Source: an uncultured Planctomyces sp. (lineage in GTDB: Bacteria; Planctomycetota; Planctomycetia; Planctomycetales; Planctomycetaceae). Taken from it: a DNA stretch of 35,118 nucleotides. Positions 1-22,206 of the stretch are shown here, piece after piece. Every line of letters begins with the position of its first letter. Position 1 is the first letter of the stretch. The notes under the pieces are model-generated. The model saw only the letters and a program-made list of their open reading frames with translations, did no database searches and was not told the DNA's origin. Location: contig CALGTK010000209.1 in assembly GCA_937904325.1 (NCBI GenBank), forward strand, positions 1 through 35,118, in the 5' to 3' direction. The position numbers and the translations under genes were made by a program.

Positions 1-2412
1 AACATCACTGATGACGAAGCCGCTGCAACAGCCTCGATCGTCAATCTGAACGACGGCGTCAATGACGACGTTGAACTGATCATCGATGCGGGTTCATATG
101 TCGTGCGAAGTACTTCGGGATCACCGGTGGAGTTCTTCCGTCGGTCCATCGGTTCCGTAACGGCGATCACAATCAATGGCGGAGACAACGACAGCGACAC
201 TATCTCGATTAACTTTGCTGGTGGAAATCCGGTCCCACCAGTCAATCCGCTGATTACCCCTTCCGGCGGAATCACGATCAACGGTGGCGCGGCAGGCAAC
301 GACACAGTCACGCTCGACAACGTTGGTGCTACTTTCGCAACACACACTTACGACTACGCGAATGCCAACGACGGAACCATTACTCTGAATGATGGTGCTG
401 ATGACACGACCATCAACTTCACGGGTCTGGAGCCAATCACGAACGACGGAACTGCGACAGACATTGTTTTCAATCTGCCAGCTACAAACGATGACGCATC
501 CCTGGCAGATACAGGAACGTCCTCTGATGGCATGATGAGCCTTATCAGCAATAGTACCACGTTCGAGGCCACGACATTCGTCGTCCCAACGACATCGCTG
601 ACTATCAACGCTGGTGATGGAGATGACACCGTTGCGTTCACTTCGGCGGATGATTCCCTGATGCCGAACGATTCGTCGAATATGAATTCTCAGACAGTTA
701 TCGTTAACGGCGACGCCGGCAACGACATTCTCGTTGGTTCGTCATTCAACGATGTCATGAACGGTGGAGCGGGTAACGATGTCGTCAATGGACGTGCCGG
801 AAACGACACGCTGGGCGGCGACGCCGACAACGACACACTGTTGGGCGGTGGCGGTGCCGACAATCTCTTCGGTGGCGACGGCGCTGACCGAATCAAAGGG
901 CAAGGTGGTACTGACTCTGTGGGCGGTGGAGCAGGCGACGACACGATCGAAGGTGGTGCCGGAACCTCTTCACTGCGTGAAGAAGGCAACGTCGATCTCA
1001 CCATCCGATCCAGTGGGGCTGCGATCATTCTCGAAGGATTGGGCACCGACCTGATCACCGGAACTTACACGACAGTCGAACTTATTGGTGGCTCGGCAGG
1101 TAACCGGCTTGATGCTTCAGAGTACACCGGCAATGTAACGCTTGACGGTGCAGGCGGTGATGACACCCTGATTGGGACATCGAATGTCGACAGCATTATT
1201 GGTGGTACTGGCACTGACCGAGCTATCATAAGAGTCAGAGGCAATGTTGCAGTTACTGACGGCGGGGTGTTTGGTCCAGGCGGTGACTTCCTGGACAGTG
1301 TCGATTCACTTCAAATTGAAATTGATGATGAAACCGGTGCGAGAGTTGACGCTTCGACCTATACGCTTGGTCGAGTGACAATCATCGGTAGCGGTGGACG
1401 GGACACGATTATCGGCTCGTCTCAGAACGATTTCCTGAACGGTCGAGGTGGTCGCGACCAGGTCTTCGGTGGCGATGGCAATGACCGACTCCTCGGTGGC
1501 GGAAGCGGCGACCTGCTTGTTGGTGGCGATGGTCGGGACACGATTCTTGGTAATTCAGGAATTGACACGATCAGCGGTGGCGAAGGCAACGACCGTATCG
1601 TCGGCGGCAACCAACGCACCGTTCTGCGTGAAGAAGGCTTCTCTGGAGATGTTACAGTTGCCAGCAACGGGCAAGCCGCGACCATCACCGGTCTGGGCAA
1701 CGACAATCTGAAAGGTACCTTCACCGAAATTGAGCTGATCGGCGGCGACGGACCAAACAGGATTGACGCCTCAGGCTTCAACTTTGCCATCACGCTTCAA
1801 GGTGGCGGCGGTGACGACACTTTGATTGGTGGCAGCCAGGGCGATTCTCTGGATGGTGGAGACGGCACAGACCAGATTCAGCAGACAGTTGACCTTGAGC
1901 AAATCCTGGCCGACACACTGGTTACTGGCCGAGGAGCAGACACGCTCACCAGCATCGAAGAAGCTGTGCTTATCGGTGGCGATTTCGGAACGAACATTGA
2001 CGCCAGTGCATTCACCGGTAAGACAACGCTCATCGGCAACGGTGGCGGTGACACGCTGATCGGTGGCTCAAATGACGACGTGCTCTCTGGTGGTGACGGT
2101 GAAGACAAACTGTTCGGACTGGGGGGCAATGACACGGCCGACGGAGGCGACGGTAACGACAGTGTTGTTGGTGGCGACGCTGATGACATCCTGCTTGGCG
2201 GTTCAGGTAACGATACGCTGCTGGGCGAAGCCGGTAGTGACACACTGCTCGGTGAAGACGGAGACGACAATGTCGACGCCGGTAGCGAAACGGACACCGC
2301 CACAGGTATTGGTAATGGCGAAGCCGACGATGACGCAGATACGGTCAGTGGGGCGGAATCGATCGACGACGCTTTTGTGTTTGACTTCGATTCAATCGTC
2401 GCCGGTTTCTGA
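1..2412 (+). CDS. RTX-type calcium-binding repeat protein, 3' part (5' end outside window)
   Basis: The frame is open from base 1 to the TGA at 2410-2412, so this is the last 803 codons of a longer gene. A GTG at 103 lies inside the open frame and is not a convincing start. The first residues (NITDDEAAATA) look like the end of a Calx-beta-type domain. Most of the rest is glycine/aspartate-rich nonapeptide repeats of the GGxGxDxLx type, which in RTX proteins bind calcium and fold as a beta-roll outside the cell. Between the RTX blocks a second unit with the core IDAS...TL.G.GGDDTLIGG occurs four times (about 1080-1180, 1310-1415, 1730-1835, 1970-2070). The protein ends soon after the last repeats with an acidic tail. 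It is probably secreted and structural or adhesive; the substrate or partner is unknown. The family call is secure, the function is not. Confidence 0.85.
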   Translation, partial: NITDDEAAATASIVNLNDGVNDDVELIIDAGSYVVRSTSGSPVEFFRRSIGSVTAITINGGDNDSDTISINFAGGNPVPPVNPLITPSGGITINGGAAGNDTVTLDNVGATFATHTYDYANANDGTITLNDGADDTTINFTGLEPITNDGTATDIVFNLPATNDDASLADTGTSSDGMMSLISNSTTFEATTFVVPTTSLTINAGDGDDTVAFTSADDSLMPNDSSNMNSQTVIVNGDAGNDILVGSSFNDVMNGGAGNDVVNGRAGNDTLGGDADNDTLLGGGGADNLFGGDGADRIKGQGGTDSVGGGAGDDTIEGGAGTSSLREEGNVDLTIRSSGAAIILEGLGTDLITGTYTTVELIGGSAGNRLDASEYTGNVTLDGAGGDDTLIGTSNVDSIIGGTGTDRAIIRVRGNVAVTDGGVFGPGGDFLDSVDSLQIEIDDETGARVDASTYTLGRVTIIGSGGRDTIIGSSQNDFLNGRGGRDQVFGGDGNDRLLGGGSGDLLVGGDGRDTILGNSGIDTISGGEGNDRIVGGNQRTVLREEGFSGDVTVASNGQAATITGLGNDNLKGTFTEIELIGGDGPNRIDASGFNFAITLQGGGGDDTLIGGSQGDSLDGGDGTDQIQQTVDLEQILADTLVTGRGADTLTSIEEAVLIGGDFGTNIDASAFTGKTTLIGNGGGDTLIGGSNDDVLSGGDGEDKLFGLGGNDTADGGDGNDSVVGGDADDILLGGSGNDTLLGEAGSDTLLGEDGDDNVDAGSETDTATGIGNGEADDDADTVSGAESIDDAFVFDFDSIVAGF

Positions 2413-2624
2413 TCAGACAGTACTTCGTCTAAAGCGAAAAATGCAGTAGACAAGGCCCGGCCGATGGTTACGATCACGGACCTTACTTCTTAGGCGATCT
2501 TGTTTTCGGATGTCCGCATCAAAATGGATAGCCGTCAGTCTCCAGATGATTGTTCAACAGGCAAGTGAATTCACGGTCTGACGATCACAACCCGCTGCTG
2601 GCCCGCACGGGACGGGCTCTATGA

Positions 2625-3728
2625 ATGGCCAATGAAAAACTGCGACGAATGATTATCGTCGAAGCTGCTCGAATGATGTACGAACGGCGTGAGACCGAGT
2701 ATTTCCGAGCCAAGATGAAGGCTGGAAAGCGACTCTGCCACGGTTGGGTGAAACCGTCAGACATCCCAAGCAATGCCGAAGTCCGCGATGAAATTCAGCG
2801 GATGACGTGGCTCTTCGAAGGCAATTCACGCTTCGACAAGCTTCGAGACATGCGTATCCAGGCCTTGCGCATGATGCACCTGCTCAAGCACTGCAAGCCG
2901 AAAATTATCGGCAGCACACTCACGGGACATATACGCCAAGGCTCCGATATCGACATCCACTGCTTTGTCTCCAGCACCGACGCCGTAACGGCAACACTCG
3001 ATCTCGAGTGCATGGAATATGACCTGGAGTTCAAACAGGTTCGCAAGAACGGTGAGGAACGAGTCTTCACACACATCCACATCCGGGATGAATACCCAAT
3101 TGAATTGACGCTCTACCCATCAGGCAAAGCGAGTTACGTTTTCAAGAGTTCAATCACCGGTAAGGCGATGGAACGCGCGACATTGGCCGAATACGAACAG
3201 TTTCTGCGCGATGAGTATGCTGGGATCGACCTCGCCGAGGAACTGGAATCAGCAGAAGACTCGATCGATCGGTTTCAGGTCTACCGATCATTGCTACTTC
3301 CGATGGATGGTTACGAACAGTCGAAAAAGTATCACCCCGAAGGTGACGTACTGTACCACAGTCTGCAGGTCTTTGAGCTTGCTCGCGACGAACTTCCATA
3401 CGACGAAGAGTTCCTGCTCGCAGCGTTGCTGCATGACGTCGGCAAAGGTGTCGACCCGAGTGATCACGTCGCCGGCGGACTCGATGCTCTGGATGGTCAC
3501 ATTTCCGAACGGACCGCCTGGTTTATTAAGCATCACATGCAAGCGCATCTCGTACGAGACCGGACGATCGGGCACCGAGCGCACAGGCGTCTTAAGGAGT
3601 CGCCAGACTACGAGGACTTGATGATCCTCGAAGACTGCGATCATAACGGCAGACAGCCCGGCACCATCGTGTGTGATCTTGACGACGCTTTGGATTACAT
3701 TCGTGACCTTGCACGGCAATACGGATAG
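2625..3728 (+). CDS. nucleotidyltransferase-fold plus HD-domain protein
   Basis: A 367-residue soluble protein with two recognisable parts. Residues about 94-115 carry a nucleotidyltransferase signature, GS-x3-G...GSDIDI, with the metal-binding aspartates at 108 and 110. Residues about 240-330 carry an HD phosphohydrolase signature: H245, then H270-D271 in LLHDVGKG, with further His/Asp near 302-340. The NTase motif is closer to the minimal-nucleotidyltransferase type than to the GG-x-RD motif of CCA-adding enzymes and poly(A) polymerases, so a tRNA role should not be assumed. The N-terminal 90 residues are basic and helical. The start is the ATG at 2625, overlapping an out-of-frame ATGA; only a weak purine-rich stretch precedes it. 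The next gene lies 86 bp downstream and could be co-transcribed. The nucleotide substrate is unknown. Confidence 0.75.
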   Translation: MANEKLRRMIIVEAARMMYERRETEYFRAKMKAGKRLCHGWVKPSDIPSNAEVRDEIQRMTWLFEGNSRFDKLRDMRIQALRMMHLLKHCKPKIIGSTLTGHIRQGSDIDIHCFVSSTDAVTATLDLECMEYDLEFKQVRKNGEERVFTHIHIRDEYPIELTLYPSGKASYVFKSSITGKAMERATLAEYEQFLRDEYAGIDLAEELESAEDSIDRFQVYRSLLLPMDGYEQSKKYHPEGDVLYHSLQVFELARDELPYDEEFLLAALLHDVGKGVDPSDHVAGGLDALDGHISERTAWFIKHHMQAHLVRDRTIGHRAHRRLKESPDYEDLMILEDCDHNGRQPGTIVCDLDDALDYIRDLARQYG

Positions 3729-3814
3729 CTGTTTCAGAGCGTCATCAAAAAGAGTTTGCTCCTTGAAGTTCATTCCCCCGACGCCTATCAACTGCATCAC
3801 TCGCAGGTTCTGAA

Positions 3815-5614
3815 ATGACTGACCAATACCCCGTGAACTGGGAACTTGATTCACTCTATCCGCATCCCGAGACGGCTGAGTTTCGGGTGGCGATCGATCA
3901 GATTAAGTCTGAGTTGTCACAACTAGCCGATCTATCTGAGACCCTTCCGCCGGTAAGTACAACTGCAGAAACAGTTGACATGTGGGCGGCGTTCCTGAAC
4001 AGACATGCTGCGGCTCATGCCGAGTTTTCAGCGATCAATGCGTTCGTTGGCTGCCACGCTGCGGCCGACGCTGCAAACAAGACTTTTCAACAGTACGAAG
4101 GTGAGTTGTCGGCGCTAAGTCCGTTGCGATCTCAGGTTACGACAAACATAGAGTTTTCATTTCAAGCTGCTGATGACAAAACGTTTGCGACGTTTGTTTC
4201 CTCTGCTGGGTCGCTTGAAGAAAATGTCTACTTCCTTCAGCTTTGCCGACGGAACGCGTCTCTGCGGTTGCCAAAAGACCAGGAACTGCTCGCTGCCGCG
4301 CTGGACGTCGACGGTCTGCATGCCTGGGGACGAGTCTACGATCGGCTATCGGGCGAGCTGCGAATTCAGATTCAGCACCGGGGCGAAATTATCGACCGCT
4401 CGCCGGGGCAAGTGCAATTCGACATGCCGGAACGCGCTCTTCGCGAAAACAACTTCTACGCCGCTGATCGTGCGTGGTCGAGCATCGCTGAACCCTGTGC
4501 TGAAGCCATCAACCACATCGCAGGCAACAGGCTCTCTAAGTATCGTCGGTTGGGGATCGACCATCTGGCCGCACCGCTCAACCAGAATCACATGACGCGC
4601 GAAACGCTCGACACAATGTGGAGTGCCATCACGCAGCGAAAATCCTGCGTCGTTGATTATCTCAAGAAAAAAGCTGAACTGCTCGGCGTGGAGCGGTTGT
4701 CGTGGTTCGACCAACAGGCTCCACTACCCTCAAGAGGAAACACTGCATCCTCGGCACTGTCTTACGAAGAGGCGTGCGACCTGACCATCAATGCGTTCTC
4801 GGAGTTCAACCCAGAACTGGGTGAGTTCGCCAGAATGGCGGTTGCTGAAAAGTGGATCGAAGTTGAAGATCGGCCTGGCAAGCGGCAAGGAGGATTCTGC
4901 ACGGATATCCCAACTCGGAAACAGTCGCGGATCTTCATGACGTTTACACACAGCAACGACAGCATGTCGACGCTCGCACATGAACTTGGCCATGCATATC
5001 ACACCTGGGTCTTGCGAGATCAACCAGCCTTTCTACGTGATTATCCGATGAACCTGGCGGAAACAGCTTCCACGTTTGCCGAGTCTGTCCTCTGTGAATG
5101 CCGACTTGCTGCGGCGTTGACGAAGCAGGAAAAGCTGGAAATCCTCGACGGAATGCTCGGTGACTCCGTCGCGTTCCTGATGAACATCCACGCGAGATTT
5201 ATTTTCGAAAACAACTTCCACAACGAACGAGCGACCGGCGAAGTTGGTGTCGACAGACTCTGCGAACTTATGAAGTCCGCTCAGCAGGAAGCGTACTGTG
5301 ACGCGCTGACTGAAGACGGCTGGAATCCGAACTTCTGGATCTCGAAGCTGCACTTCTACATCACCGACTGGCCGTTCTACAACTTCCCCTATACCTTTGG
5401 ATACCTTCTGTCTCTTGGTACCCATTCTCTGGCCAAAGGATCGACTGATTTCCCGAAGCAGTTCAGTGACTTTCTGATCGCGACAGGCTGCCAGGACGCA
5501 GAAGCTGCTGTCGAATCTTCGTTTGGTTACGATCTCCGCCAGCCTGAATTCTGGAACCGCAGTCTCGACATTATCGAACAACGCGTTACTCAGTTTCTCG
5601 ACATCGCCAATTGA
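3815..5614 (+). CDS. pepF: oligoendopeptidase F, M3 family metallopeptidase
   Basis: A 599-residue cytosolic zinc peptidase of family M3 (thimet/oligoendopeptidase F group) that degrades short peptides. The zinc-binding HExxH is present as HELGHAYHTW, with H389, E390 and H393. The third ligand is expected in the ENLAET-like helix, seen here as MNLAETASTFAES about 25 residues on. The C-terminal FPYTFGYLLSLG segment is typical of the family. Length and the absence of a signal peptide fit PepF. The start ATG at 3815 has an AGG about eight bases upstream. It follows the nucleotidyltransferase/HD gene on the same strand, and no functional link is evident. Confidence 0.92.
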   Translation: MTDQYPVNWELDSLYPHPETAEFRVAIDQIKSELSQLADLSETLPPVSTTAETVDMWAAFLNRHAAAHAEFSAINAFVGCHAAADAANKTFQQYEGELSALSPLRSQVTTNIEFSFQAADDKTFATFVSSAGSLEENVYFLQLCRRNASLRLPKDQELLAAALDVDGLHAWGRVYDRLSGELRIQIQHRGEIIDRSPGQVQFDMPERALRENNFYAADRAWSSIAEPCAEAINHIAGNRLSKYRRLGIDHLAAPLNQNHMTRETLDTMWSAITQRKSCVVDYLKKKAELLGVERLSWFDQQAPLPSRGNTASSALSYEEACDLTINAFSEFNPELGEFARMAVAEKWIEVEDRPGKRQGGFCTDIPTRKQSRIFMTFTHSNDSMSTLAHELGHAYHTWVLRDQPAFLRDYPMNLAETASTFAESVLCECRLAAALTKQEKLEILDGMLGDSVAFLMNIHARFIFENNFHNERATGEVGVDRLCELMKSAQQEAYCDALTEDGWNPNFWISKLHFYITDWPFYNFPYTFGYLLSLGTHSLAKGSTDFPKQFSDFLIATGCQDAEAAVESSFGYDLRQPEFWNRSLDIIEQRVTQFLDIAN

Positions 5615-8620: not shown

Positions 8621-8959
8621 TCATCCCTGGCATTGAATGCAGAACGGAGCTTCGGGTATGAATTCCAGTCGTTCAGGCGGGATATCAATGCCACATCGAA
8701 CGCACTTGCCGTACGTACCGGCTTCCGCGCGGACCAGCGCTGCTCGTACGCGAGCCAATTGAGACGCTGCGTTCCGACGGCCATGTTCCGCCATCTGGTG
8801 TTGCTGATACTCGTCCATAAAAGTGAGGCGACCGACAGCGCTGTCCATTTTCGGTCGATTATCCGAACGATCTACTTCTTCAAGACGTTTCGATAGTTCC
8901 AGCTCGAGTTCGTGAAGTTGAACTTTCGCGGCGGCCAGCGAACTGTTGTCAGTCGTCAT
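8621..8959 (-). CDS. TraR/DksA-type C4 zinc-finger protein
   Basis: A 112-residue protein with an N-terminal helical, charged region (likely coiled coil, residues about 5-80) and a C-terminal C4 zinc finger, CVRCG...FCIQC. This matches TraR/DksA-family proteins, which bind the RNA polymerase secondary channel; several short relatives have unknown targets. The start is the ATG at 8959, not an upstream in-frame codon, because GGAG lies seven bases before it and the ATG overlaps the stop of the upstream kinase gene as ATGA. That overlap suggests translational coupling. The acidic DxxDxA tip that defines true DksA is not clearly present, so a full DksA function is not claimed. Confidence 0.85.
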   Translation of the reverse strand: MTTDNSSLAAAKVQLHELELELSKRLEEVDRSDNRPKMDSAVGRLTFMDEYQQHQMAEHGRRNAASQLARVRAALVRAEAGTYGKCVRCGIDIPPERLEFIPEAPFCIQCQG

Positions 8960-9840
8960 TGTGATTCTCCGATAGAACCTCGATCCGGCACGGCCCCAGC
9001 GTGAGCACAAACACCGGCCGCGACAGTACACGCGTTTCGCAGATTATCCGCATGAGAGTCCCCACGCAGCAGTCCGAGCAGAAACGCAGCTGTAAAGGAA
9101 TCACCTGCGCCGACGGTGTCGACTACGTTGGTTGGAATTCCGGGATGCTCAACCGTTCCATCTGACGTTGCCAGCGTGACTCCGTCGGCTCCACGAGTCA
9201 TGATGACCAGGTCCAGACGCTGCTGCTCCAGAAGTTGTCCGAGTTGAACTGCCGGGCACTCCCCGGATTTGAGTCCACATGCATGGCAAACAGTAGCTAA
9301 TTCCTCGTCGCTGAATTTCAGAATGCTTGCAAGTTTGATCGATTCGCGAATCAATGTCGCATCGAAAAACGGCGGCCGTAAATTGATGTCGAGCACGCGC
9401 GGGACGTTTGACGCAGCCTTCAGTGCCAGCGTGATGGTGGTACGAGAAACTTTTGCACGTTGACCGAGTGTGCCAAAGTAGACGGCGTCAGCATTCGATA
9501 TTTGCGTCTCCAACTCATCGTTCCACGCAAGCTGGTCCCACGCCGATTCCGCATGGATCGTAAATGTTGGCTTACCGCCAGCGTCAACTTCAACGCCAAC
9601 CGTGCCGGTGGTTGCATCAGAGGCGACCTGTACTAACCCGGTGTTAATCCCGTACCCCTCAAGAATCCTGATCGCCGAGCGGCCGTGAGAATCGTCACCG
9701 ACGGCGCTGACCATTGACACGTCACCGCCAAGGATCGCGGCGTGACAGGCAAAGTTAGCCGGTGCACCCCCGAATTGCTCTCCATCAGGAAACAGGTCCC
9801 AAAGGACTTCGCCGAGTGAAATGATTTTAGGGATGATCAA
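8956..9840 (-). CDS. PfkB-family carbohydrate kinase (fructokinase-like)
   Basis: A ribokinase/PfkB-fold sugar kinase. The N-terminus has LGEVLWDLFP followed by the substrate-binding GGAPANFACHAAILGG; the C-terminus has the second PfkB signature DTVGAGDSFTAAFL, whose GAGD provides the anion hole and the catalytic aspartate. Overall similarity is to fructokinases that phosphorylate fructose with ATP, but the sugar is inferred. The frame is open up to a TTG at 9954. I prefer the TTG at 9840 because GAGG lies nine bases before it, and because the resulting 294 residues match the family's usual length and begin directly at the first beta strand. The stop overlaps the TraR/DksA start by four bases (ATGA), so the two are probably one transcript. 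Confidence 0.85.
   Translation of the reverse strand: MIIPKIISLGEVLWDLFPDGEQFGGAPANFACHAAILGGDVSMVSAVGDDSHGRSAIRILEGYGINTGLVQVASDATTGTVGVEVDAGGKPTFTIHAESAWDQLAWNDELETQISNADAVYFGTLGQRAKVSRTTITLALKAASNVPRVLDINLRPPFFDATLIRESIKLASILKFSDEELATVCHACGLKSGECPAVQLGQLLEQQRLDLVIMTRGADGVTLATSDGTVEHPGIPTNVVDTVGAGDSFTAAFLLGLLRGDSHADNLRNACTVAAGVCAHAGAVPDRGSIGESQ
8967..8970 (-). promoter_or_regulatory. ribosome binding site of the TraR/DksA gene
   Basis: GGAG on the minus strand, seven bases before the ATG at 8959. It lies inside the end of the kinase gene and decides the start of the zinc-finger gene. Confidence 0.7.
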
Positions 9841-10015
9841 CGAAACGAGCCTCGTGCAAAGCGGCGATATGGCCGTGCTGTTCCAGATTATTTCAGCGTG
9901 ATCAGCTGTTAGAAACAGCCAGGACAGATGATGATTCGGATCTGCAGAGTGCAAACTATGATTCGAGACAGGCTGGGATGATACTGAGTCAGGACATAGT
10001 GGCAGTGCGAGACTT

Positions 10016-10027: not shown

Positions 10028-11629
10028 TTGAAACGTCAGATAATGAACCCCCCATCAGCACGATTCCCGAAATTGTTACTTCTCTACCGTGGGGGAGAGG
10101 TCGCGGTCTCAGCCGCGGGTGAGAAGTCCACAAGTTTTCGCCAAACTCGCAACGCATCCCTGATCGCCGCCATGGTTGTGCTGGCCTGTGCGTCTCAACA
10201 GATCGGTGCCGAAGAAGGCGTCGTCAGAGATCTGACCGTACCGGCAGTTACTGATGCAGTTCCTTCGCCTGGTACACGAGTCCGACAGTTCAACAAGCAT
10301 TACGAAGGCAGCAGAGTCTACCACACGCTGTACCTGCCAACTGACTGGATGCCAGGCAAAAAATACCCAGTCATCGTGGAATACGCCGGCAACAAATGGC
10401 GAACGAGCCCTGGTACGGTTGAGGGCAGCAGTCTGGGATACGGCATCTCGGGCGGGAAAGGTGTCATCTGGATCTGCATGCCCTACGTGAATCAGCAGGA
10501 GATGCGAAATCAGGAAACCTGGTGGGGCGACGTCGACGCAACAGTAGCCTACTGCAGGCATACAGTGAAACGAATCTGCAACAAGTACGGAGGAGACGCG
10601 GACAACGTCTTCATCGCCGGCTTCTCACGAGGCGCCATCGCCTGCAACTTCATTGGCCTGCACGACGAAGAGATTGCCTCCCTCTGGCGAGGCTTCATCT
10701 GCCACAGCCACTACGACGGCGTCAAAAAATGGGGCTACGCCAACAGCGACCGCTCTTCCGCTGCCGAGCGACTGGCACGTCTCGGAAACCGACCGCAATT
10801 CATCAGTCAGGAGCACAGCACTGAGTCAACACAACTCTACCTCAAGGAAGTATTGCCGACTGGTAACTTCACCTTCCTCCCACTCAAAGGAGTCCCACAT
10901 ACGGACACCTGGGTCCTCGACCCCCGCCCCGAGCGAGCAACACTTCGCAATTGGTTCAATCATTCGTTGGCCATTAAAAAGAATGCCGCATCCAGCAGCG
11001 TCATTAACGCAGGTGTCGGTGGGAATCGAAGTTCGCAATTACTCAGCCGCTTAGAGCAGGACGTGCTGTTGCACCGGCCGACTGTCGTTGTGCTGATGGT
11101 TGGGACGAATGATCGGCTGAATTCTGGCAGTTTTGTGGACGCAAAACTTTACCAGAAGAATGTCGAAACGCTTGTCGATCGTATTCACCAAGGGGGATCG
11201 AAAGTGCTGCTGGTGACTCCACCCCCTTGTATCCCGGAGCTGCTGTTTACTCGGCATGACCCTCGCGAATTCGATGATCAGTCTCCGGTTGAGCGGATGG
11301 AGGAAGTGCGATCGATCCTGCTCGACATTTCAAAAGAGCGGAGCGTTTCGATCGTCGATTTTCATGAACACTTGCTGCGGGAGAACATCGCCGATAACCA
11401 GAAAGAAAGCGTTATCCGGAATGTTGCGAACAGTAAGGTCAAGGACGGCGTGCATCTGACGCCACGCGGCTACGAACTGCTCGCTCAGTTGATTGCAAGG
11501 AAGATCAAAGCTGCGGACCTGCCAGCTTCGAAAGTTGCGTGCTTCGGTGATAGCCTCACTAAAGGATCGGCCAAAGCCAACTACCCGGCGTATCTGGATG
11601 CGATTCTCGACGGTAAAAACGCACCCTGA
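10028..11629 (+). CDS. exported alpha/beta hydrolase fused to a circularly permuted SGNH hydrolase domain
   Basis: A 533-residue protein with a TTG start supported by GAGGAG six bases upstream. Residues 1-62 form a long basic leader with a hydrophobic segment (SLIAAMVVLACASQQIGA) consistent with export. Residues about 75-320 form an alpha/beta-hydrolase esterase domain with the nucleophile elbow GFSRGA (S200) and a late His in GVPHTDTW. Residues about 325-533 carry SGNH esterase blocks in an altered order: block II GVGGN (N333), block III GTND (N361), block V DGVH (D473, H476), and then block I FGDSLTKG (S509) at the extreme C-terminus. Block I is normally at the N-terminus of this fold. The likely role is deacetylation or ester cleavage of a polysaccharide or ester; the substrate is unknown. 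A 32-bp dispersed repeat is translated as residues about 22-32. Confidence 0.85.
   Translation: MKRQIMNPPSARFPKLLLLYRGGEVAVSAAGEKSTSFRQTRNASLIAAMVVLACASQQIGAEEGVVRDLTVPAVTDAVPSPGTRVRQFNKHYEGSRVYHTLYLPTDWMPGKKYPVIVEYAGNKWRTSPGTVEGSSLGYGISGGKGVIWICMPYVNQQEMRNQETWWGDVDATVAYCRHTVKRICNKYGGDADNVFIAGFSRGAIACNFIGLHDEEIASLWRGFICHSHYDGVKKWGYANSDRSSAAERLARLGNRPQFISQEHSTESTQLYLKEVLPTGNFTFLPLKGVPHTDTWVLDPRPERATLRNWFNHSLAIKKNAASSSVINAGVGGNRSSQLLSRLEQDVLLHRPTVVVLMVGTNDRLNSGSFVDAKLYQKNVETLVDRIHQGGSKVLLVTPPPCIPELLFTRHDPREFDDQSPVERMEEVRSILLDISKERSVSIVDFHEHLLRENIADNQKESVIRNVANSKVKDGVHLTPRGYELLAQLIARKIKAADLPASKVACFGDSLTKGSAKANYPAYLDAILDGKNAP
10092..10123 (+). repeat. 32-bp dispersed repeat, copy 1 (inside the hydrolase leader)
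   Basis: Identical over 32 bases to the reverse complement of 29378-29409. It contains a small hairpin: CGCGG, loop TCTCAG, CCGCG. This copy is translated in the leader of the two-domain hydrolase. Confidence 0.9.
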
Positions 11630-11667: not shown

Positions 11668-13329
11668 TCAATTTTCTGATTCGATCTCGACGTGGCAGTG
11701 ACTGGCGAATTCATCGGATGTCTCGGGGAAGTCACTGCGGGCGTGGACCCCTCGGCTTTCGCGACGTTCCAAAGCGGCGGCGGCCATCAGTCTTGCAACG
11801 AGGAGCTGATTCTGAAGTTCCCAGCCTTCGATTGAAGCGAACTCTCGTTGTGAAACGTACCGTTCCCAGAACTCAAGCTGAGTGATCGCCTGCTGAAGTC
11901 CGTCTGCGTGCCTGCTGATGCCAACGTTTCGCCACATCAGCGAATTCAATGAGTTCTCGATGTCGGAGATGTTGAGTTCTTCCTCGTCGGATTCCGGTTG
12001 TGCCCAGTCTGAATCCAGGGGCAAGGCTCGGAATGAATCTTCGATTTCCGATGCGTGTTGCGATGCAAGTAGCCCGGCCTGACGGCCGACAACCAGACCT
12101 TCCAGCAGGCTGTTCGAACCAAGCCGGTTCGCGCCATGCAGTCCTGATGCGGAAACCTCACCGGCAGCAAGCAACCCAGGCAGCGTCGAGACTCCATCCA
12201 GGTCGACGGTCAGTCCTCCAATCATGTAGTGAGCACCGGGTCGGACCGGGATGCGATCTCGAGAAAGTTCCAGGCCAAACCTGGCGCAGACTTTCGTAAT
12301 GTGTGGAAATCTCGTCGCGACCAGTTGCTCGTCCAGGTGCGAAAGATCCAGGTACACACAGGGGTGCTGCGTGACGGCCATCTGTTTGGTGATTGCCTGA
12401 CTGACGACGTCGCGCGGTGCGAGTTCGGCGGCGGAGTCGTAGTCCGGCATGAATCGATGCCCGCGACAATCGAGCAGTTGCGCACCCTCGCCGCGAACCG
12501 CCTCTGAAATTAAATGCCGCGCGCTGCCGGCGATGTAGAGTACCGTTGGGTGAAACTGCATGAACTCCATGTCGCGAAGTTCGGCCCCCGCGCGAGCAGC
12601 AATGGCGTGTCCATCCGCAGTGGCAATGGGCGGGTTGGTCGTCTCACGAAAAAGTCGTCCTGCACCGCCGGTCGCCAGCACGATCTGCTTGGCCCAAATG
12701 ATGGTCTTGCCATGTTTCGCGTTCCAGACGATGGCTCCGACGCAACGGCCTTCATGAGTCAGCAGGTCGATGGTGAAGGTGCTTTCCCAGATGCTGCAGC
12801 TTTTGCGCAAGCGGATTGTTTCGATCATCGCTCGCATGATCTCTTTGCCGGTGGCATCACCAAGAGCATGTGCGACTCGAGGGTGACTGTGACCGCCCTC
12901 ACGAGTCAGAGCGATCTCGCCGTCTTCTTTGTCGAACTGAGTCCCCAACGCGACGAGCTCGCGAATACGGTCGGCCGCTTCGCGCACGACAGTATTGACA
13001 ACATCTTCGTCACAGAGCCCCTTGCCCGCTGCAATGGTATCAGCCGCGTGGCTGGCGACGTCGTCGAGCGGGTCCAGCACTCCAGCGATGCCACCCTGGG
13101 CCCACGCGCTGTTAGAGAGTTTCACTTCGTCCTTGGTCACGACGATCGTCTGGAGCGAAGGATCAACTTCCATCGCGGCACGAAGACCGGCAATGCCGCC
13201 GCCGATCACAAGCACATCGGCAAAAACATGGGGTACTCGCTTTGGAGAAAATCGGACGAGGTAGCGTCTGCCGGCCTCAAGAGAAAGTTTTCGCACGGGA
13301 ATTTCCGTCGGATCAAAGCTACCAGGCAA
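11668..13329 (-). CDS. nadB: L-aspartate oxidase
   Basis: A 553-residue flavoprotein that oxidises L-aspartate to iminoaspartate, the first step of de novo NAD synthesis. The FAD dinucleotide fold VIGGGIAGLRAAME starts near residue 40. Other family signatures are SNSAWAQGGIAG, FMQFHPTVLY, and the C-terminal GANRLGSNSLLEGLVVG flavin segment, followed by the helical fumarate-reductase-type C-terminal domain. The start codon is TTG at 13329 with no clear ribosome site; a GTG eleven codons later is an alternative. It converges on the hydrolase gene with a 38-bp gap and has no nadA or nadC neighbour in the window. Fumarate reductase flavoprotein is the main alternative; length, soluble character and motifs favour NadB. 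Confidence 0.9.
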   Translation of the reverse strand: MPGSFDPTEIPVRKLSLEAGRRYLVRFSPKRVPHVFADVLVIGGGIAGLRAAMEVDPSLQTIVVTKDEVKLSNSAWAQGGIAGVLDPLDDVASHAADTIAAGKGLCDEDVVNTVVREAADRIRELVALGTQFDKEDGEIALTREGGHSHPRVAHALGDATGKEIMRAMIETIRLRKSCSIWESTFTIDLLTHEGRCVGAIVWNAKHGKTIIWAKQIVLATGGAGRLFRETTNPPIATADGHAIAARAGAELRDMEFMQFHPTVLYIAGSARHLISEAVRGEGAQLLDCRGHRFMPDYDSAAELAPRDVVSQAITKQMAVTQHPCVYLDLSHLDEQLVATRFPHITKVCARFGLELSRDRIPVRPGAHYMIGGLTVDLDGVSTLPGLLAAGEVSASGLHGANRLGSNSLLEGLVVGRQAGLLASQHASEIEDSFRALPLDSDWAQPESDEEELNISDIENSLNSLMWRNVGISRHADGLQQAITQLEFWERYVSQREFASIEGWELQNQLLVARLMAAAALERRESRGVHARSDFPETSDEFASHCHVEIESEN

Positions 13330-13422: not shown

Positions 13423-14277
13423 TCATCTGCGGCGAGATTTTCGCTGGCACACGCGGCAGAAAAATGTGGAACGTTGCCCCTGCACGATTCGGACGATTGT
13501 TCCACGCTCACAGGTCAGACACGGTTGTCCCTCGCGATCGTAGACTCGATGCGAATTCTGATAGCCGCCGGATTTATTGAGAGCGTTTCGGTAAGTTCCG
13601 TCACTCAAAGTCGAACCCTCGTACTGAATGGCCGTATTGAGGATCTCGGTTGTCGCTTCCGCCATACGTCGAATCTGTGCTGGCTTGAGGTCGCAGGCCC
13701 GAGTCTCCGGCGAGATTCGGGACTGGTGCAGAATCTCGCTCGCGTACAGGTTTCCAATGCCTGACACTTTTTTCTGATCGAGCAGAGCCACCTTGATGAC
13801 ACTCGTCGTGCGGACACACATGGCCCGCCACTCTTCTTCGGTAATTTCCAGAGCGTCTGGGCCGAGCCGCCCCGGACCAAGCACTTGCTCACGCTGCTCT
13901 GGATCAAGCAGGCGAATTGTCCCGAGACCTCGCCGGTCCCAGAACCAGAGTCGCTTTGTCCCACCGGGGGCCTTGAGCCGCCACTCGACGCGTAGATGAG
14001 CTTCGCTGGGTGGCTCATCCAACAGCATCAGACCAGTCATGCGAGGCTCGATGACAAACGTGTCTCCGGTCCCAAGTTCCATCAGAACTCGCTTCGCCCG
14101 TCGACTTACCGAAACAATTTTCTGACCGCGGACTCTTAGATCGATGTCCTCAAGCGACGGGTCAATCATCATCGGCCGACATTCGCACGGGCAGGCACGC
14201 ACAGAGACAATCTTTCGCCCTTCCACGGAAGAACGAATGCCGCGAACCATTGTCTCAACCTCTGGAAGCTCTGGCAT
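13423..14277 (-). CDS. mutM: formamidopyrimidine-DNA glycosylase
   Basis: A 284-residue base-excision repair enzyme (Fpg/MutM) that removes oxidised purines such as 8-oxoguanine and cleaves the abasic site. The start is the ATG at 14277, because the mature protein must begin PELPEVE with the catalytic proline directly after Met; twelve upstream in-frame residues are excluded. The conserved lysine of the N-terminal domain is in RRAKRVLME. The helix-two-turn-helix ligand segment is KVSGIGNLYASEIL, and the C-terminal zinc finger is CLTCERGTIVRIVQGQ followed by FCRVCQ. The gene is 58 bp downstream of uvrA on the same strand, so the two repair genes may be co-expressed. No strong ribosome site precedes it. 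Confidence 0.94.
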   Translation of the reverse strand: MPELPEVETMVRGIRSSVEGRKIVSVRACPCECRPMMIDPSLEDIDLRVRGQKIVSVSRRAKRVLMELGTGDTFVIEPRMTGLMLLDEPPSEAHLRVEWRLKAPGGTKRLWFWDRRGLGTIRLLDPEQREQVLGPGRLGPDALEITEEEWRAMCVRTTSVIKVALLDQKKVSGIGNLYASEILHQSRISPETRACDLKPAQIRRMAEATTEILNTAIQYEGSTLSDGTYRNALNKSGGYQNSHRVYDREGQPCLTCERGTIVRIVQGQRSTFFCRVCQRKSRRR

Positions 14278-14317
14278 TGTTGTGTCTATTCGTGGTTCGA
14301 AAACTGGTGTCAAACTT

Positions 14318-14335: not shown

Positions 14336-17300
14336 CTACAGACACTTCTTAAGAAAGGCTCGAACCTTTGGTGACTTCACCTGAGCCAGCTTGTCGAACC
14401 GTAATCGGATCGCTGATTTCCCCTTCTTCCCTTTGACCGCTTCGTGTTCTGCGACGATGCCAGCGACGCTTCCCGCACCAACTGATTCATCCCGCGGCGT
14501 AATCACAAGGTCGATGCCTGATCGGCGTTTCGTACAGATGACTGCCCAGTCGTCTTTGCTGCCGGACTGACGGTAACGCACGAAGGCTCGCTCGTTCCAG
14601 ACGACGTCTCCGTCGGGGATGATCTTGTCGAAGACTCCCAGCAGCGTATCCAGAACTTCCTTCTTCCACTTGGGACGCTTCTCGGCCGGAAACCCTTTCT
14701 GCATCAAATGCCATTTCCGGCCGAGTACTTTCCACGGGGCGACGTCTTTCACATCAGTCGACGTCGCGGCCACGCGTTCGATGTACGAGGTGCGGGCAGC
14801 GGTCAGGAAGTCCCGAAACTCCAGAGTATCGATTTCGCTCAGCCAGTGAACCGTGATCAGAACTTCCTGGTAACCGGCAGGCTTATTCTTGACTCGGACG
14901 CGGTCAGACCGACCGTAGATTGGCAGTTCGTTGATATCGTCGACGTTTCGCAGATTGAGGCTTGAAGCCAGTTCCTTCTGGTCGAAGCAGTCACGCTGCA
15001 CTCGGAAGTAAAGTTTCAACAACCATTCGTCGCGAGTCAGCGCGTGCACGAACCAGCCAAGCCGCTTGTCGTCACCGGTGATCTCGACCGTCGAGGAATC
15101 ATTCCAGACGGTCTTGAGGCTGAGGGGCGAAGGTTGAGAGCCATCACCGTCGCCACTTGCTGCTGCCTGCGCTTTTAGAAGATCGCTTCCAGTCATCAGT
15201 GCTGCCGTGGCTACCGGTTTCTTCTTGCGGGTCACCCTTTTCTTTTGGGCTGGAGCGGAATTCGTATCAGACTCCGACGTGTCGGAAGTCAGTTGCTCAA
15301 CGAGCATCTCCAAGGCGATGCCTTCCCACTGGCAAGGTTTCCCCGAGTGAGCGATGCGGTCACGAGTATGCCATTTTCGGCCATCGACTTCCCAGGGCAT
15401 TCTTGCGTCTTTGCCGACCTGAGCCATCGTCAGGTCTCCTTCGCGTTTCTTCCCTTCCGCGGCTGCGTCAAATATTTCGCGAGTTCCTCGCCGCCCAGTC
15501 GCAAGGACATTCACAAGTTGTTCTGCCGTGTGCGACCTTCGCTGTTCGCCACCGTCGGGCGTTTCCTGGTTCTCGCTCTTAAGTCCTTCGACTAAATTCT
15601 CGGGAGTGCCTTCCGCAACGATCCAGCCTCCGCCGTTGCCGGCTTCAGGACCGAGATCGATTACCCAGTCGGCTGTCTTGATAACGTCGAGGTTGTGCTC
15701 GATCACGATCACCGTGTTGCCTGCTTCGACCAGACTGTTCAGCACTTTGAGCAGCTTGTCGATATCATGGAAGTGGAGACCGGTCGTTGGCTCGTCAAGA
15801 ATGTAAACGGTCTTGCCGGTGTTTGGTCGCGCGAGTTCGGCCGCAAGTTTTACTCGCTGAGCTTCGCCGCCAGACAGCGTTGTCGCAGACTGTCCAAGCG
15901 TCAGATAGTCCAGCCCGATCGCGCACAGTGTTGACATCGTCTTGCGGATTTTCGGGATATTTTCAAAGAGTTCCAGACACTGCCCTATCGACAAATTCAG
16001 CACGTCGGCGATTGAGTGGCCGCGATACTTCACGGAAAGCGTTTCACGGTTGTAACGCTCACCGCGACACTCATCACATTCCACCCAGACGTCGGGCAGG
16101 AAGTGCATCTCGATCTTCTTCTGACCGTCACCTTCGCATGAGTCGCAGCGTCCACCTGGCCGGTTAAAACTAAACCGCCCCGGACGATATCCACGCACCT
16201 TCGAATCCGGCAGCCGACAGAATAATTCACGAATATGGTCGAACACGCCGGTGTAAGTGCCGGGATTGGATTTAGGCGTACTGCCAAGCGGAGCCTGATC
16301 GACGACGATGGCCTTATTCACAAGCCCGAGCCCATTGAGCGTCTCGTACGGACCGGGTTGTTCGTTAGCTCGGTGAAAATGCTTCACCAGGGCCTTCGCC
16401 AGCGTATCCTCGATCAGTGAACTTTTTCCCGAGCCCGACACACCCGTCACGACGGTAAACATTCCAAGTGGAATACGTAGATCGACATCCCGCAGGTTGT
16501 TCAGCCGAGCTCCGAGTAGTTCCATCCAGCCGCCAACGGTTGCACTCGTGGTTAAATGCTTTGCCTTTTTCTTCGAGACCTTCTTGCGTGTCTTTGATTT
16601 TTTCCCGGCCACAGTTACGTCGGTCGTTGAAACTTCCTCAGGCGGCCCCTGACCTGAGAACGGCATCCGTCGCGTTTCCGGAATCAGAATCTGACGTTTT
16701 TCGCCGAGGTACTCTCCGGTGAGCGATTTCATTCGCGAGGCGAGTTGTTTCGGGGTTCCCTGTTCGGTGATCGTTCCACCGAAGCGGCCGGCTCCTGGCC
16801 CGAAGTCGAAGACTCGGTCAGCGGAAGCGATGACTTCCCGGTCATGCTCGACCAGAATCATGGTGTTTCCAAGATCCCGCAGTCGGTGCAGAGCTGTCAG
16901 CAATCGCGCGTTGTCACGAGGGTGCAGGCCGATGGTTGGCTCGTCGAGAACGTACAGAACTCCAGTTAACGCTCGACCGATTTGACCAGCCAGTCGGATG
17001 CGCTGAGTTTCACCGCCGGACAAAGTTGGCAACGATCGCTGCAGTGTCAGATAGTCCAGCCCGACTTCGACGAGAAATGACATCCGACCGCGGGCTTCTT
17101 CCAGCAGGTCACCCGCAACTCGCTTATCGTCGCCGGTAAGTCGGATCTTCTTCAGAACGTCAAGAGCCAGCCCAAGCGGCGTCTCGCAAACCTGCTGTAA
17201 GGTCTTTCCCTGAAACCGAATGTTCGCCGCGTCGTCCCGAATTCTAGCTCCGTCACAAGTCGAGCAGGGGATGTCGCCGACCAGCGATGCGAGATGCCGC

Positions 17301-20300
17301 CGATGCTGGTAAGAAACTCGCGATGCTTCTTCCACCGCGGGAAACAACCCTTTGTATTGAAAACGGAAGCCGGGTGATTGTTTTGTGGATGCGACTTCAA
17401 ACCACCGATCACCGGTGCCGTACAAAACCATGCGACGATGAATTGGGTCAAGTTGAGCGAATGGCACGTCCAGCAAGATGCCAATGTTGTTTGACATGGC
17501 CTGAAGCATCGCAAGGAAAACCGCACTGCTGGATGGATCTGGCCAGACAGCGACGGCAGCGTTCTGGAGTGAGCGGTGTGGATCGTCCAGCAGAACGTTC
17601 AGATCGGTGCCTTGCTGAATGCCCAGCCCTTCGCATTCCTGACACCATCCCAGCGGACTGTTAAACGAAAAATTGTTTGGGATCAGCTCTTCGAAACTCC
17701 TGCCGCATTCTTCGCACGCTCGGAACAGACTGTAGGATTCGACTATCCAATCGGTCTCGTCGCGACCGTCGTCAACAAGGGCAGTCCGCATCACGCCCTG
17801 GCCAATTCCCAGTGCGATCTCGACAGAATCGGCGATGCGAGAACGCTGTCGTTTTTTTACAAGGATTCGATCAACGACGACTTCTACGTTGTGCTTACGT
17901 TTGCGGTCGATCTCCGGAACGTCTTCCAGGCGGTGTGTTGTGCCGTCGACTCGAACCCGCGCGAAACCCTGCTCTCGAAGATTGTCCCACAGCCGTTCGT
18001 AAGCCTGCCCGACTCGAATTTCCTGCGGAGCGAGAAGCAGCAATTTGGTGCCCTCTGCCAGAGAAAGCAGTCGGGCGATGACTTCGTCCGTGGTTTGCGT
18101 GTTGACCGGAATCTGGCAGGCAGGGCAATACTGAATCCCCAGGCGGCACCAGAGAATTCGCAGGTAATCATAAATTTCGGTGACGGTTCCGACGGTCGAT
18201 CGCGGAGTCGCGCCAACACTTTTCTGCTCGATCGCGATCGACGGCTGCAGCCCATGAATGTGCTCGACGCGAGGCTTCGGCATCTGTCCGAGAAACTGTC
18301 GTGCGTAGGCAGAAAGCGATTCCACATACCGCCTCTGCCCTTCCGCGTAGAGCGTGTCCATGGCCAGTGAAGTCTTGCCGCTGCCGCTTGGTCCGCAGAA
18401 GACATTCATCTTATCGCGAGGCAACTCCAGATCGATATTCTGAAGGTTGTTCTGAGCCGCTCCGCGAACGGTAATCTGCTGCCGCGACGTTGATGACGAA
18501 AGCCGAGTCGTGTCTTTCTGCCATCGCAAAGCATCTTCGTCCCGCCCACTGTTGCCTCGTTTCTTTCGACGTTTGATATTAAGCACGGGCGCCAGCGCCG
18601 TTCCGGTATGAGAATCCAGATTGCTCGCCACGGCTTCGGGAGTGCCCGCACAGACAATCGTTCCGCCTCCGGCGCCGCCTTCCGGTCCGACATCAATGAC
18701 CCAGTCGGCGGTCTTGATAACGTCAACGCTGTGCTCGACAACCAGGACGGTGTTGCCTTTCCTGACAAATCCGTGCAGCACTTCGAGCAGTTTTTCGACA
18801 TCGGCGAAATGCAGCCCGGTTGTCGGCTCGTCGAGCAAGTAGATCGTCTGACCGGTTGATCGCTTGCCGAGTTCCCGGGCGAGTTTGATTCGCTGTGCTT
18901 CACCGCCGGACAGTGTTGGCGACGGCTGACCGAGCTTCAGATAATCAAGTCCGACGTCGTGCAGAGTCTGCAGCAGCCGGTAAATCTTCGGGACATTTTC
19001 AAAATGTTCCAATGCCTCCTGGACGTCCATGTTGAGCACTTCGGCGATATTCTTACCTTTGAAGCGGACTTCAAGCGTTTCGTGATGAAAGCGCTCGCCA
19101 TCGCACATCGGACAGGTCACCCAAATGTCGGCCAGAAAATCCATTTCCAGCTTGTTGGCACCGTGACCTTCGCAGGCTTCGCACCGTCCGCCGCTCACGT
19201 TGAAGCTGAACCGCCCAGGTTTGTATCCGCGAATCTTTGCTTCAGGCAGCTTTGCGTAGAGGTCGCGGATCAGGTCGAAAAGTTTGACGTAAGTTGCCGG
19301 GTTGGAACGCGGTGTTCTTCCAATCGGGGACTGATCAATGTCTATGGCCTTGTCGACATTCTCGATACCAGTGACGGATTCGTGATCACCTGGCTGACCT
19401 TTGCCCTTGTTGATGTCTCGATTGAGGGTCTGCCAGAGAATGTCGTTGACCAGCGAACTCTTCCCTGAACCGCTCGCCCCGGTCACACAGATGAAACAAC
19501 CGAGCGGAAATTCGACATCGACGTTCTGCAGGTTGTGATGCGTCGCTCCCTTGATCTTGATCAGCTCACCGTTGCCTGGGCGTCTTTCTGTTGGGATCTC
19601 TATTTTGCGGCGGCCGGAGAGGAATTGCCCGGTGACGCTCTTCTTCGATTTCTTGACGTCGATGACTGAACCTTCGACGACGATCTCGCCGCCACGCACG
19701 CCGGGGCCTGGTCCAAAATCGACGATGTAATCAGCAGCTTTCATTGTCTCTTCGTCATGCTCGACGACGATCACCGTGTTGCCCTGGTCACGCAGGTCGC
19801 AAAGGCTGTCGAGCAGCATTTTGTTATCACGCGGGTGCAGACCGATTGACGGCTCGTCGAGAATGTAAACGACGTCGACCAGCCCGCAGCCGATTTGGCC
19901 GGCAAGGCGGATACGTTGGCTTTCTCCGCCAGAAAGTGTCGGTGCCGTTCGTTCGAGAGTGAGATAATTCAATCCGCATCTCAACAGGAATCCTGAACGA
20001 CCGCGGATCTCTTTGAGGGCTTCGCCAGCGATGTACTGCTGTGTTTCAGTCAGGTCGAGCGAGTCGAAAAAATGCCATGCAGATTGGATATCCAACGCGC
20101 AGACCTGAGAAATGTTCAATGTCGCCGGGCGTTGATTGACGCGTTTTTTCTTCCCGTTCTTTTTTGCTCCGGTCGTCTTGCCGAACGCTCCCACTCCGTT
20201 GAGGTATTCAGAACTGTTTGTTGTGAGCGTGACAGCGGCCGCCTCGCGATTGAGTCTGCTGCCTCCGCAACTCGTGCACTTCACAAATCTCATGTGCTTT

Positions 20301-21679
20301 TCGAGCTGCCGTCGCCGCATGGGGTTATTCGTTTTACGGTAGCCTTCCAGCAACTCCGAAATAAACCCTTCGAACGTGCCACCGTGCTTCCAGGTACCTC
20401 CGCGATAACCCCATTCGTAAGTGATGTGCCGATCGCCCAGCCCGAACAGAAACAGCTGCTTCTGCTGGTCGGACAAATCCCGCCAGGGTGTTTTCAGGAA
20501 GCTGCCTTCTTTGACGTTGAGGTCTGTTTCGATCGCTCCTCCGACACCCTTATAGATGTGCCGCCGCCAACGGCCGATTCCTTTGATCGCTCCCAGTAAT
20601 GCCAGGCAACCATTCCATAGCGACTTCTTTTCATCCTGCACGAGTGACTCGACGACGAACTCAAATCTTTCGCCCAGCCCGTTGCACTCACGACACATCC
20701 CCTGCGGGCTGTTGAAACTGAAGAGTTGCGGCGACGGCGGCTCGAAGCTGATCCCGCAGTCTGTGCAGGCGTAGTGCGAACTGAAGAGTTGCTCGGACGA
20801 CCCGCCCGGCCCGTCACCACGAGTCTCATTTTTTTGCGGGTTGGCTTCTTCCTTCACAACAAGCAGGCTGCCTTCGCCGAGCTTCAATGCCTGTTCGACG
20901 GACTCAGCCAGTCGCGCACGCAGGGCCTTGCCGGCAACGATACGGTCGATGACAACTTCGATGTAGTGTCGCATCTGGCGGTCGAGCTTCAGGTCATCCG
21001 ACAGTTGCACGATCTCGCCGTCCACGCGTGCCCGGACAAAACCCTGCTTCAATAGATCGTCGAACAGATCGCGGTACTCGCCCTTTTGACCCTGGATGAT
21101 CGGTGCAAGAAGTTGGAATTTCATTCCATCTTCGAAGCGGCCAATCGTGTCGATGATCTGCTCGACCGATTGAGCGGTGACTGGCTTGCCGCATTGATAG
21201 CAGCTTTGCGTACCGACTCGCGCAAACAGAACTCTCAGATAGTCGTAAATTTCCGTGATCGTGCCGACGGTGCTGCGAGGGTTGCGGCCGCTTGTTTTCT
21301 GCTGGATGGAGATCGACGGAGCCAGCCCTGTGATCGCATCTACTTCCGGCTTCGGCATCTGTCCCAGAAACTGTCGCGCGTAGCTGGACAGCGACTCGAC
21401 GTACCGCCGCTGCCCTTCAGCGTAAAGCGTGTCAAACGCCAGCGAACTCTTCCCCGAACCACTGACGCCGGTCATCACGATCAGCTTGTTCTTCGGCAGC
21501 TTCAACGAAACATCGCGCAGGTTATGCTCCCGAGCGCCGCGGATTACAATCTCTTGAGGTTCAGAACTGGCCTTCGCTTTGCGAGGCTTTGTTACCGCAG
21601 TTCTTTTTACAACTGCTTTTTTCTTTTTGTTGTCCGCTGCTTTTGTCGTTGTTGCAGAGCCAGTTCCGCGTCGAGCCAT
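14336..21679 (-). CDS. uvrA: double (tandem-fused) UvrA excinuclease ABC subunit A with duplicated unknown C-terminal module
   Basis: A 2,447-residue protein, about 2.6 times the usual UvrA length of about 940. Two complete UvrA units follow each other (residues about 45-1060 and about 1085-2030). Each has two ATPase halves. The four Walker A motifs are GVSGSGKSS (about 71), GASGSGKSS (about 740), GPSGSGKTS (about 1100) and GVSGSGKSS (about 1750). All four LSGGE signatures and LDEPxxGLH Walker B motifs are intact. Both units keep the zinc modules (CxxC pairs around SFNSP, and GGRCExCEGxG...CxxC). Residues about 2035-2447 are extra and hold two copies of a GRKWH-containing module I do not recognise. 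UvrA finds bulky DNA damage and loads UvrB in nucleotide excision repair, and normally works as a dimer; this chain could be a built-in dimer. The start is the ATG at 21679, with a TTG five codons upstream as the alternative. Stops and frame are intact throughout. Confidence 0.93.
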
Positions 21680-22206
21680 GAGACGGTCTATCAATGTGAG
21701 AAATGCGTGGTGCGATGGTCAATCGATCAGGAGCCTACCAGTAGTAGTATAGAACTCCGACCCGCGCGGCCCAATCGATCGTCCTGAGCAAATGTCTGTT
21801 GCTGGACACCATGTTGACCCACACCGAATCGCCCGAGGATCATTGGCGACCGAATCCTCAGATTGCAGTCGTGCCGTCAGACAAACTCAAAATCACAGAG
21901 GTCAATCGCCAAAAGCCATTCTTACTGCCTGGCCGCTACACAGCCATTCTTGCCGTGCGACCCTGCAAATTTGGAACATACAGGACAGATCTGATAAGAA
22001 TCGCGGCTTTTATTTAGTCAGTCTTTCTGAGAAAACAGAAATCATTCGCCGGTCAATCGTTTCTCAGATTCTGGCAAATTAGTACTAAGACGTCGATTAC
22101 TGGCTCGTCATTGAGGCAGCACGACTCAGCAGCACGGCTGTTTTTCGCGGAGAGTTGCGAGAAACTGAGGTCGCCTGAACTGAGACATGAAAGTCCGGAG
22201 ACGATG
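21680..22206. other. 527-bp divergent intergenic region between uvrA and the sigma factor
   Basis: It must hold the promoters of both diverging genes, but no convincing -35/-10 pair could be assigned by eye. A 72-codon open frame at 21799-22017 has no ribosome site or recognisable product. A GGAAC at 21972 followed thirteen bases later by CTGAT is reminiscent of ECF promoters, but the spacing is too short to call. Confidence 0.3.
22197..22200 (+). promoter_or_regulatory. ribosome binding site of the ECF sigma factor gene
   Basis: GGAG lies three bases before the ATG at 22204 and six before the ATG at 22207. The second spacing is the better one, so 22207 was chosen. Confidence 0.6.

Follow-up and report, generated by a model that had tools for sequence, protein, structure and literature searches.

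Does a planctomycete gene in which the catalytic blocks of an SGNH hydrolase follow one another in the order II, III, V, I encode a genuine circularly permuted enzyme, and what would such an enzyme do when it is joined to a second hydrolase? In canonical SGNH enzymes, the beta-1 strand, block I and helix A open the fold. Here, they close it, in an open reading frame (ORF) of 533 amino acids with a TTG start, on the plus strand of the window (the whole stretch of 35,118 nucleotides that was analysed). The preliminary description had reported this block order within one ORF, and a residue check confirmed it. Our analysis suggests that the gene encodes an exported esterase with two active sites, composed of an alpha/beta-hydrolase half and an old permuted SGNH half that were recently fused, a reading to which we assign a probability of about 85%. 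The features on which the argument draws are the following, with residue counts referring to the 61 permuted sequences read (window included):

8956-9954, minus strand: PfkB-like kinase gene flanking the ORF, named by eye
10028-11629, plus strand: whole ORF, predicted exported alpha/beta hydrolase plus circularly permuted SGNH hydrolase; start codon uncertain
10151-10213, plus strand: hydrophobic stretch followed by GAE (residues ~42-62), a probable signal segment; from the sequence and the start of homology with other members
10214-10963, plus strand: alpha/beta-hydrolase domain with S200 (codon 10625-10627), H291 (codon 10898-10900) and candidate acid E262; from homologues and the model
10964-10996, plus strand: interdomain linker, in the place of the signal peptide of the stand-alone SGNH gene (compared with L002/L061)
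10997-11626, plus strand: circularly permuted SGNH domain, order G-N-H-S; from conservation, predicted fold and rotation tests
11012-11026, plus strand: block II (GVGGN) with oxyanion glycine G332; G in 61/61
11102-11113, plus strand: block III (GTND) with N361; N in 61/61
11444-11455, plus strand: block V (DGVH) with D473 and H476; D and H in 61/61
11528-11626, plus strand: relocated beta-1 strand, block I (FGDSLTKG, S509) and helix A (NYPAYLDAIL); from the strand and helices of the model, S in 61/61 and the rotation-scan peak
11668-13329, minus strand: nadB, the other flank of the ORF, named by eye

The start codon is uncertain in that the ~45 N-terminal residues show no conservation and homology starts from the hydrophobic, signal-like segment. 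At the other end, only 38 bases separate the stop codon from the end of nadB.

A circularly permuted SGNH domain

The C-terminal part of the protein is a real circularly permuted SGNH domain rather than a truncated second domain or an accident of assembly. All four catalytic blocks of the superfamily are present, in an order other than the canonical I-II-III-V, with S509 of block I (FGDSLT) 24 residues ahead of the C-terminus, and the three-layer alpha/beta/alpha fold is predicted by the AlphaFold2 model. Pfam recognises the SGNH half only: Lipase_GDSL_2 (PF13472) matches the ORF protein with an E-value of 4e-22, the score of the permuted domain far exceeds the Pfam gathering score, and the match starts at profile position 19 in the whole protein and at position 35 in the window domain alone. 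Moving block I to the front raised the PF13472 score in 4 of 4 divergent proteins (80 to 94, 88 to 106, 84.6 to 98.5 and 79.5 to 93.7 bits, i.e., a gain of ~14-18 bits), and in each of them the match then reached profile position 1. Likewise, the phmmer score against 1yzf rose from 47 bits in the native order to 59 bits after rotation. In a profile-profile rotation scan against canonical relatives, the native order scored 293 and the maximum was 348.5, with the coverage of canonical columns growing from 160 to 188 of 200; this maximum corresponds to a cut immediately before the block I strand (RVVCFGDS).

The preliminary description had called for a structure prediction, and AlphaFold2 folded the window domain into a single compact unit (pLDDT 92.8, pTM 0.91) in which block I forms a strand (residues 180-184 of the domain model) followed by helices at 186-189 and 196-204. 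In sequential structure alignment, model residues 1-174 superpose on residues 41-190 of canonical 1yzf (Z 17.7, rmsd 1.7, 149 residues), the block I piece being left unaligned by sequential aligners in both the model and 1yzf; the VIA alignment with 3mil extends to model residue 208. In the full-length model, confidence drops at block I (10-residue means ~79-85), and the pTM of this model as a whole is 0.65, too low to place the two domains relative to each other. Thus, rotation scores, the rotation scan, the predicted fold and the order in 61 sequences all back the clean circular permutation that had been proposed from this one protein.

Conservation points the same way. The block I Ser, the block II Gly, the block III Asn and the block V Asp and His are each retained in every permuted sequence. 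Glycine is the catalytic residue of block II in SGNH enzymes, and the earlier choice of N333 for this position has to be corrected to G332, given that residue 333 is N in only 32 of the 61 sequences. Outside the catalytic blocks, strong conservation extends to R409 and H410 of a TRHD motif (R in 53/61, H in 45/61) and to positions preceding DGVH (R464 in 54/61, N465 in 52/61 and N468 in 58/61), and, judging from this conservation, R409-H410, R464-N465 and N468 may contact the substrate. Orthologues from the same genus (~70-85% identity) retain the II-III-V-I order, and dN/dS against L059 and L060 is 0.12-0.18 across the SGNH domain, a range that also covers the block I piece at its C-terminus; for both halves of the protein, the values are ~0.10-0.18 in these unsaturated comparisons and lower or saturated in others. 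Together, the orthologues and the dN/dS values rule out a chance or frameshift origin of the order.

Distribution of the permuted family

The search for planctomycete homologues suggested in the preliminary description showed the permuted order to be conserved in all 61 sequences, which come from two phyla; three of these were relabelled by hand, as a loose motif pattern had matched their signal peptides. Profile A2, which was built from permuted sequences of the window's group and used to search Planctomycetota and Verrucomicrobiota, yields a bimodal set of matches: permuted ones span profile positions 1-4 to 209-215, whereas canonical ones end near 190 or before and are preceded, 19-42 residues upstream, by a GDS-like motif. 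Permuted matches were found in 14 of 392 Planctomycetota genomes, from families f14, f36 and f60 besides f1; one of these matches is divided between the ends of two contigs. In Verrucomicrobiota, near full-length matches came from 29 of 289 genomes. Searches of plasmids, phages and viral contigs recovered no permuted member beyond these two phyla. One search beyond both phyla used a hand-made composite query, taken as a lead only, and was repeated with a natural sequence; the sole match that extended into block I (H21, from Parabacteroides) was judged canonical from the position of its gene start.

The SGNH half also exists as a stand-alone gene; in the window's order, where one family was searched, this half occurs in 21 of 170 genomes, from three genera only. 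In genus g10, the stand-alone protein consists of a signal peptide (last residues AA or similar) and a mature part that begins at or near EVINAGVGGN and terminates soon after GDSLTxG...NYPAYL; a protein from g13 (L077) is 33% identical and has the same block order. The stand-alone permuted proteins are 219-260 amino acids long and contain one block I, at the C-terminus. More broadly, permuted domains occur as short secreted or cytosolic proteins and within multidomain proteins, where they are joined to CBM4_9, CBM9 or DUF6259 and, in one protein assessed by eye (L145), to a GH36-like region. In one stand-alone gene (L063, genome G027), an in-frame TAA directly follows GDSLT, with the loss of helix A, at a site that encodes Gln in the closely related L064; this stop may represent natural truncation, decay or a sequence error.

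The alpha/beta-hydrolase half

The separate alpha/beta-hydrolase domain with its own serine, S200, proposed at the outset, is borne out by its homologues and by the predicted fold. The GFSRG motif that holds S200 and the histidine H291 are invariant among 27 homologues, and in the full-length model, this domain has pLDDT values mostly >90 and a Z-score of ~17 to feruloyl/acetyl esterases. The catalytic acid is probably E262, which sits where a late strand ends and suits the acid position after strand beta-7; it is absent from L045 and L048. The domain shares its fold and GxSxG nucleophile with Est1E (2wtm), AoAXEB (9j08) and the PHB-depolymerase-like 8daj, but its identity to these proteins is only ~10-17%, and no Pfam or NCBIfam family matches it at the family cut-off. 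As a stand-alone protein, this half is widespread in Planctomycetes, Verrucomicrobia and Lentisphaerales.

Proposed function and alternative readings

On indirect evidence, both domains are most likely exported esterases acting on acylated polysaccharides. Each would remove acyl groups (acetyl or similar) from a different ester outside the cytoplasm. In the N-terminal half, the triad would comprise Ser200, His291 and an acid, probably Glu262. In the SGNH half, the chain would start at beta-2, and the beta-1 strand bearing Ser509 and helix A would now follow the original C-terminal helix via a short linker, so that Ser509 is expected to meet Asp473 and His476, with an oxyanion hole formed, as in canonical SGNH enzymes, by Ser509, Gly332 and Asn361. 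Polysaccharide deacylation is suggested by the signal peptides, by solved relatives that include acetylxylan esterases, and by the CBM4_9, CBM9, DUF6259 and GH36-like (L145, by eye) partners. The stand-alone permuted genes have no conserved neighbours in five genomes, so that gene context offers no clue to the substrate, and one permuted member from Planctomycetota (L110) lacks a signal peptide, implying that export is not universal in the permuted family.

Alternatively, the permuted domain could be folded but act as an O-acyltransferase, as in AlgX, AlgJ and PatB1, since O-acetylation of polysaccharides is what the permuted SGNH proteins known so far carry out (PMC9487903, PMC4148444). We consider this unlikely: the closest solved relatives of the permuted domain are canonical enzymes, including acetylxylan esterases and putative lipases/acylhydrolases, the block III Asn and the DxxH motif are intact here but not in AlgX/AlgJ, and no MBOAT-like partner was recognised by eye among the ORFs of the window. 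A domain-swapped dimer, in which block I would serve the active site of the partner chain rather than of its own, is quite improbable; termini located beside the active-site strand might favour swapping, but the monomer model is confident and forms one compact domain, and the linker from the old C-terminal helix to block I is short in all A2 members. Hardly credible is the reading in which the C-terminal GDSL starts a truncated second SGNH domain, leaving the first without a nucleophile as a pseudo-enzyme or an assembly error: tandem canonical SGNH proteins encoded by the same genome (G000:C123, L057) make such a remnant imaginable, but the ORF stops just short of nadB, homologues in many contexts stop or switch domain straight after block I and helix A, purifying selection acts on block I, the model packs it within the same domain, and, which largely refutes this reading, stand-alone relatives consist of a signal peptide, the beta-2 strand onwards and an end after block I, while others run on into unrelated CBM or DUF6259 domains.

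Relationship to known SGNH proteins

Circularly permuted SGNH proteins are already known: AlgX/AlgJ, WssI and PatB1 (a DHHW protein) have the order H-S-G-N or variants thereof (PMC9487903, PMC4148444, PMC10302187, PMC5697884). AlgX/AlgJ/WssI (PF16822) and DHHW/PatB1 resemble the window domain, as we predict it to act, in having a permuted SGNH fold, an extracytoplasmic location and polysaccharides as substrates (PMC9487903, PMC4148444, PMC10302187). The cut, by contrast, lies between blocks III and V in these proteins (H-S-G-N/Y) and between blocks I and II in the window domain (G-N-H-S), and the motifs differ accordingly, with GTSYS or KDS and DxH or DHHW in the former versus a canonical GDSL and DxxH in the latter. 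The ALGX and DHHW Pfam models gave no match in the ORF protein at E-values up to 1; a genome-wide PF16822 search returned zero matches, and its positive controls likewise went without a match.

With canonical Lipase_GDSL_2 proteins (1yzf acylhydrolase, AlAXEase 7ddy and Axe2), the window domain shares the four blocks and the predicted fold (Z 14-18), but its block I is C-terminal and the profile is fully covered only once the sequence is rotated. The top-scoring canonical relatives of the permuted profile, all from Verrucomicrobiota (L147 and L157-L160), have an unusually short spacer between block I and beta-2, like the window's clade, but place block I first, in L147 directly behind the signal peptide. 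The G-N-H-S order appears not to have been described previously and to mark a second cut point for SGNH permutation, itself a known phenomenon; no paper in the open-access literature searched reports this order, and among solved structures, no chain was matched by the permuted profile end to end.

Natural circular permutation of enzyme folds is uncommon, and in this case, the strand that carries the nucleophile has become C-terminal. The 61 permuted sequences, the canonical comparators L147 and L157-L160, and the three gene states of one genus allow unpermuted and permuted forms to be compared in folding, export and catalysis, making this family a natural test case for how an enzyme survives such a change. 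There is also a practical aspect: PF13472 matches to permuted domains begin at profile position 31-36, so that profile tools annotate these proteins as N-truncated GDSL hydrolases devoid of block I, with the risk of a false 'inactive' call.

Gene fusion and origin of the permutation

The fused gene is present in three genomes of the window's genus (the window, L001/L022 and L004/L021), and fusion was seen only in this genus. In a fourth genome of the genus (L002/L024), the two halves are neighbouring ORFs, and a stop codon, a fresh ATG and a signal peptide occupy the site of the interdomain linker (L002/L061); in a fifth (G048), the halves are separate genes on one contig, ~35 kb apart. In the fused state, the halves are in frame, and the linker replaces the second signal peptide. 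The fusion is probably recent, and we infer from this series that its source was probably a pair of secreted genes lying side by side in the window's genus. The tree places the split genes L060 and L061 among the fused ones, so that fusion and fission are indistinguishable, and both a single fusion followed by splitting and repeated fusion are possible.

The permutation itself is probably old. A branch of the tree separates 51 permuted rows from 29 canonical ones, with SH-aLRT support for the permuted group of 98 when block I is included and 85 on blocks II-V only. These were quick trees of sequences collected with the permuted profile, from which long rows and near-copies were removed; before its removal, one long viral canonical row grouped with the permuted rows. 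Because the permuted rows form one group, a single old permutation is the simplest reading, and sequence comparison suggests that it probably took place once, in an ancestor of the PVC group or in a donor, several permutations being a further possibility. Overall, we find it likely that the domain belongs to an old SGNH subfamily that originated in a second, independent permutation (I/II cut), became widespread in Verrucomicrobiota and Planctomycetota as a mobile module combined with carbohydrate-binding and glycoside-hydrolase-like domains, and was fused in the window's genus into an esterase with two active sites.

Duplication followed by trimming is the usual route to circular permutation. 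The same genome encodes a 912-amino-acid protein (L057, positions 1112-3850; G000:C123) in which a sialate-esterase-like N-terminal region is followed by tandem canonical SGNH domains, so that this route is available, and derivation of the permuted domain by truncation of an L057-like tandem protein is plausible as a mechanism. In the tree, tandem domains of this kind do not branch as the sister group of the permuted clade.

Elsewhere in the window, an RTX-like ORF close to the edge (103-2412, plus strand) contains many calcium-binding repeats of the GGxGxD type. A 2452-amino-acid ORF (14336-21694, minus strand), adjoined by an fpg/mutM-like gene (13423-14313), apparently comprises two complete UvrA copies in head-to-tail arrangement plus an additional region at the C-terminus.
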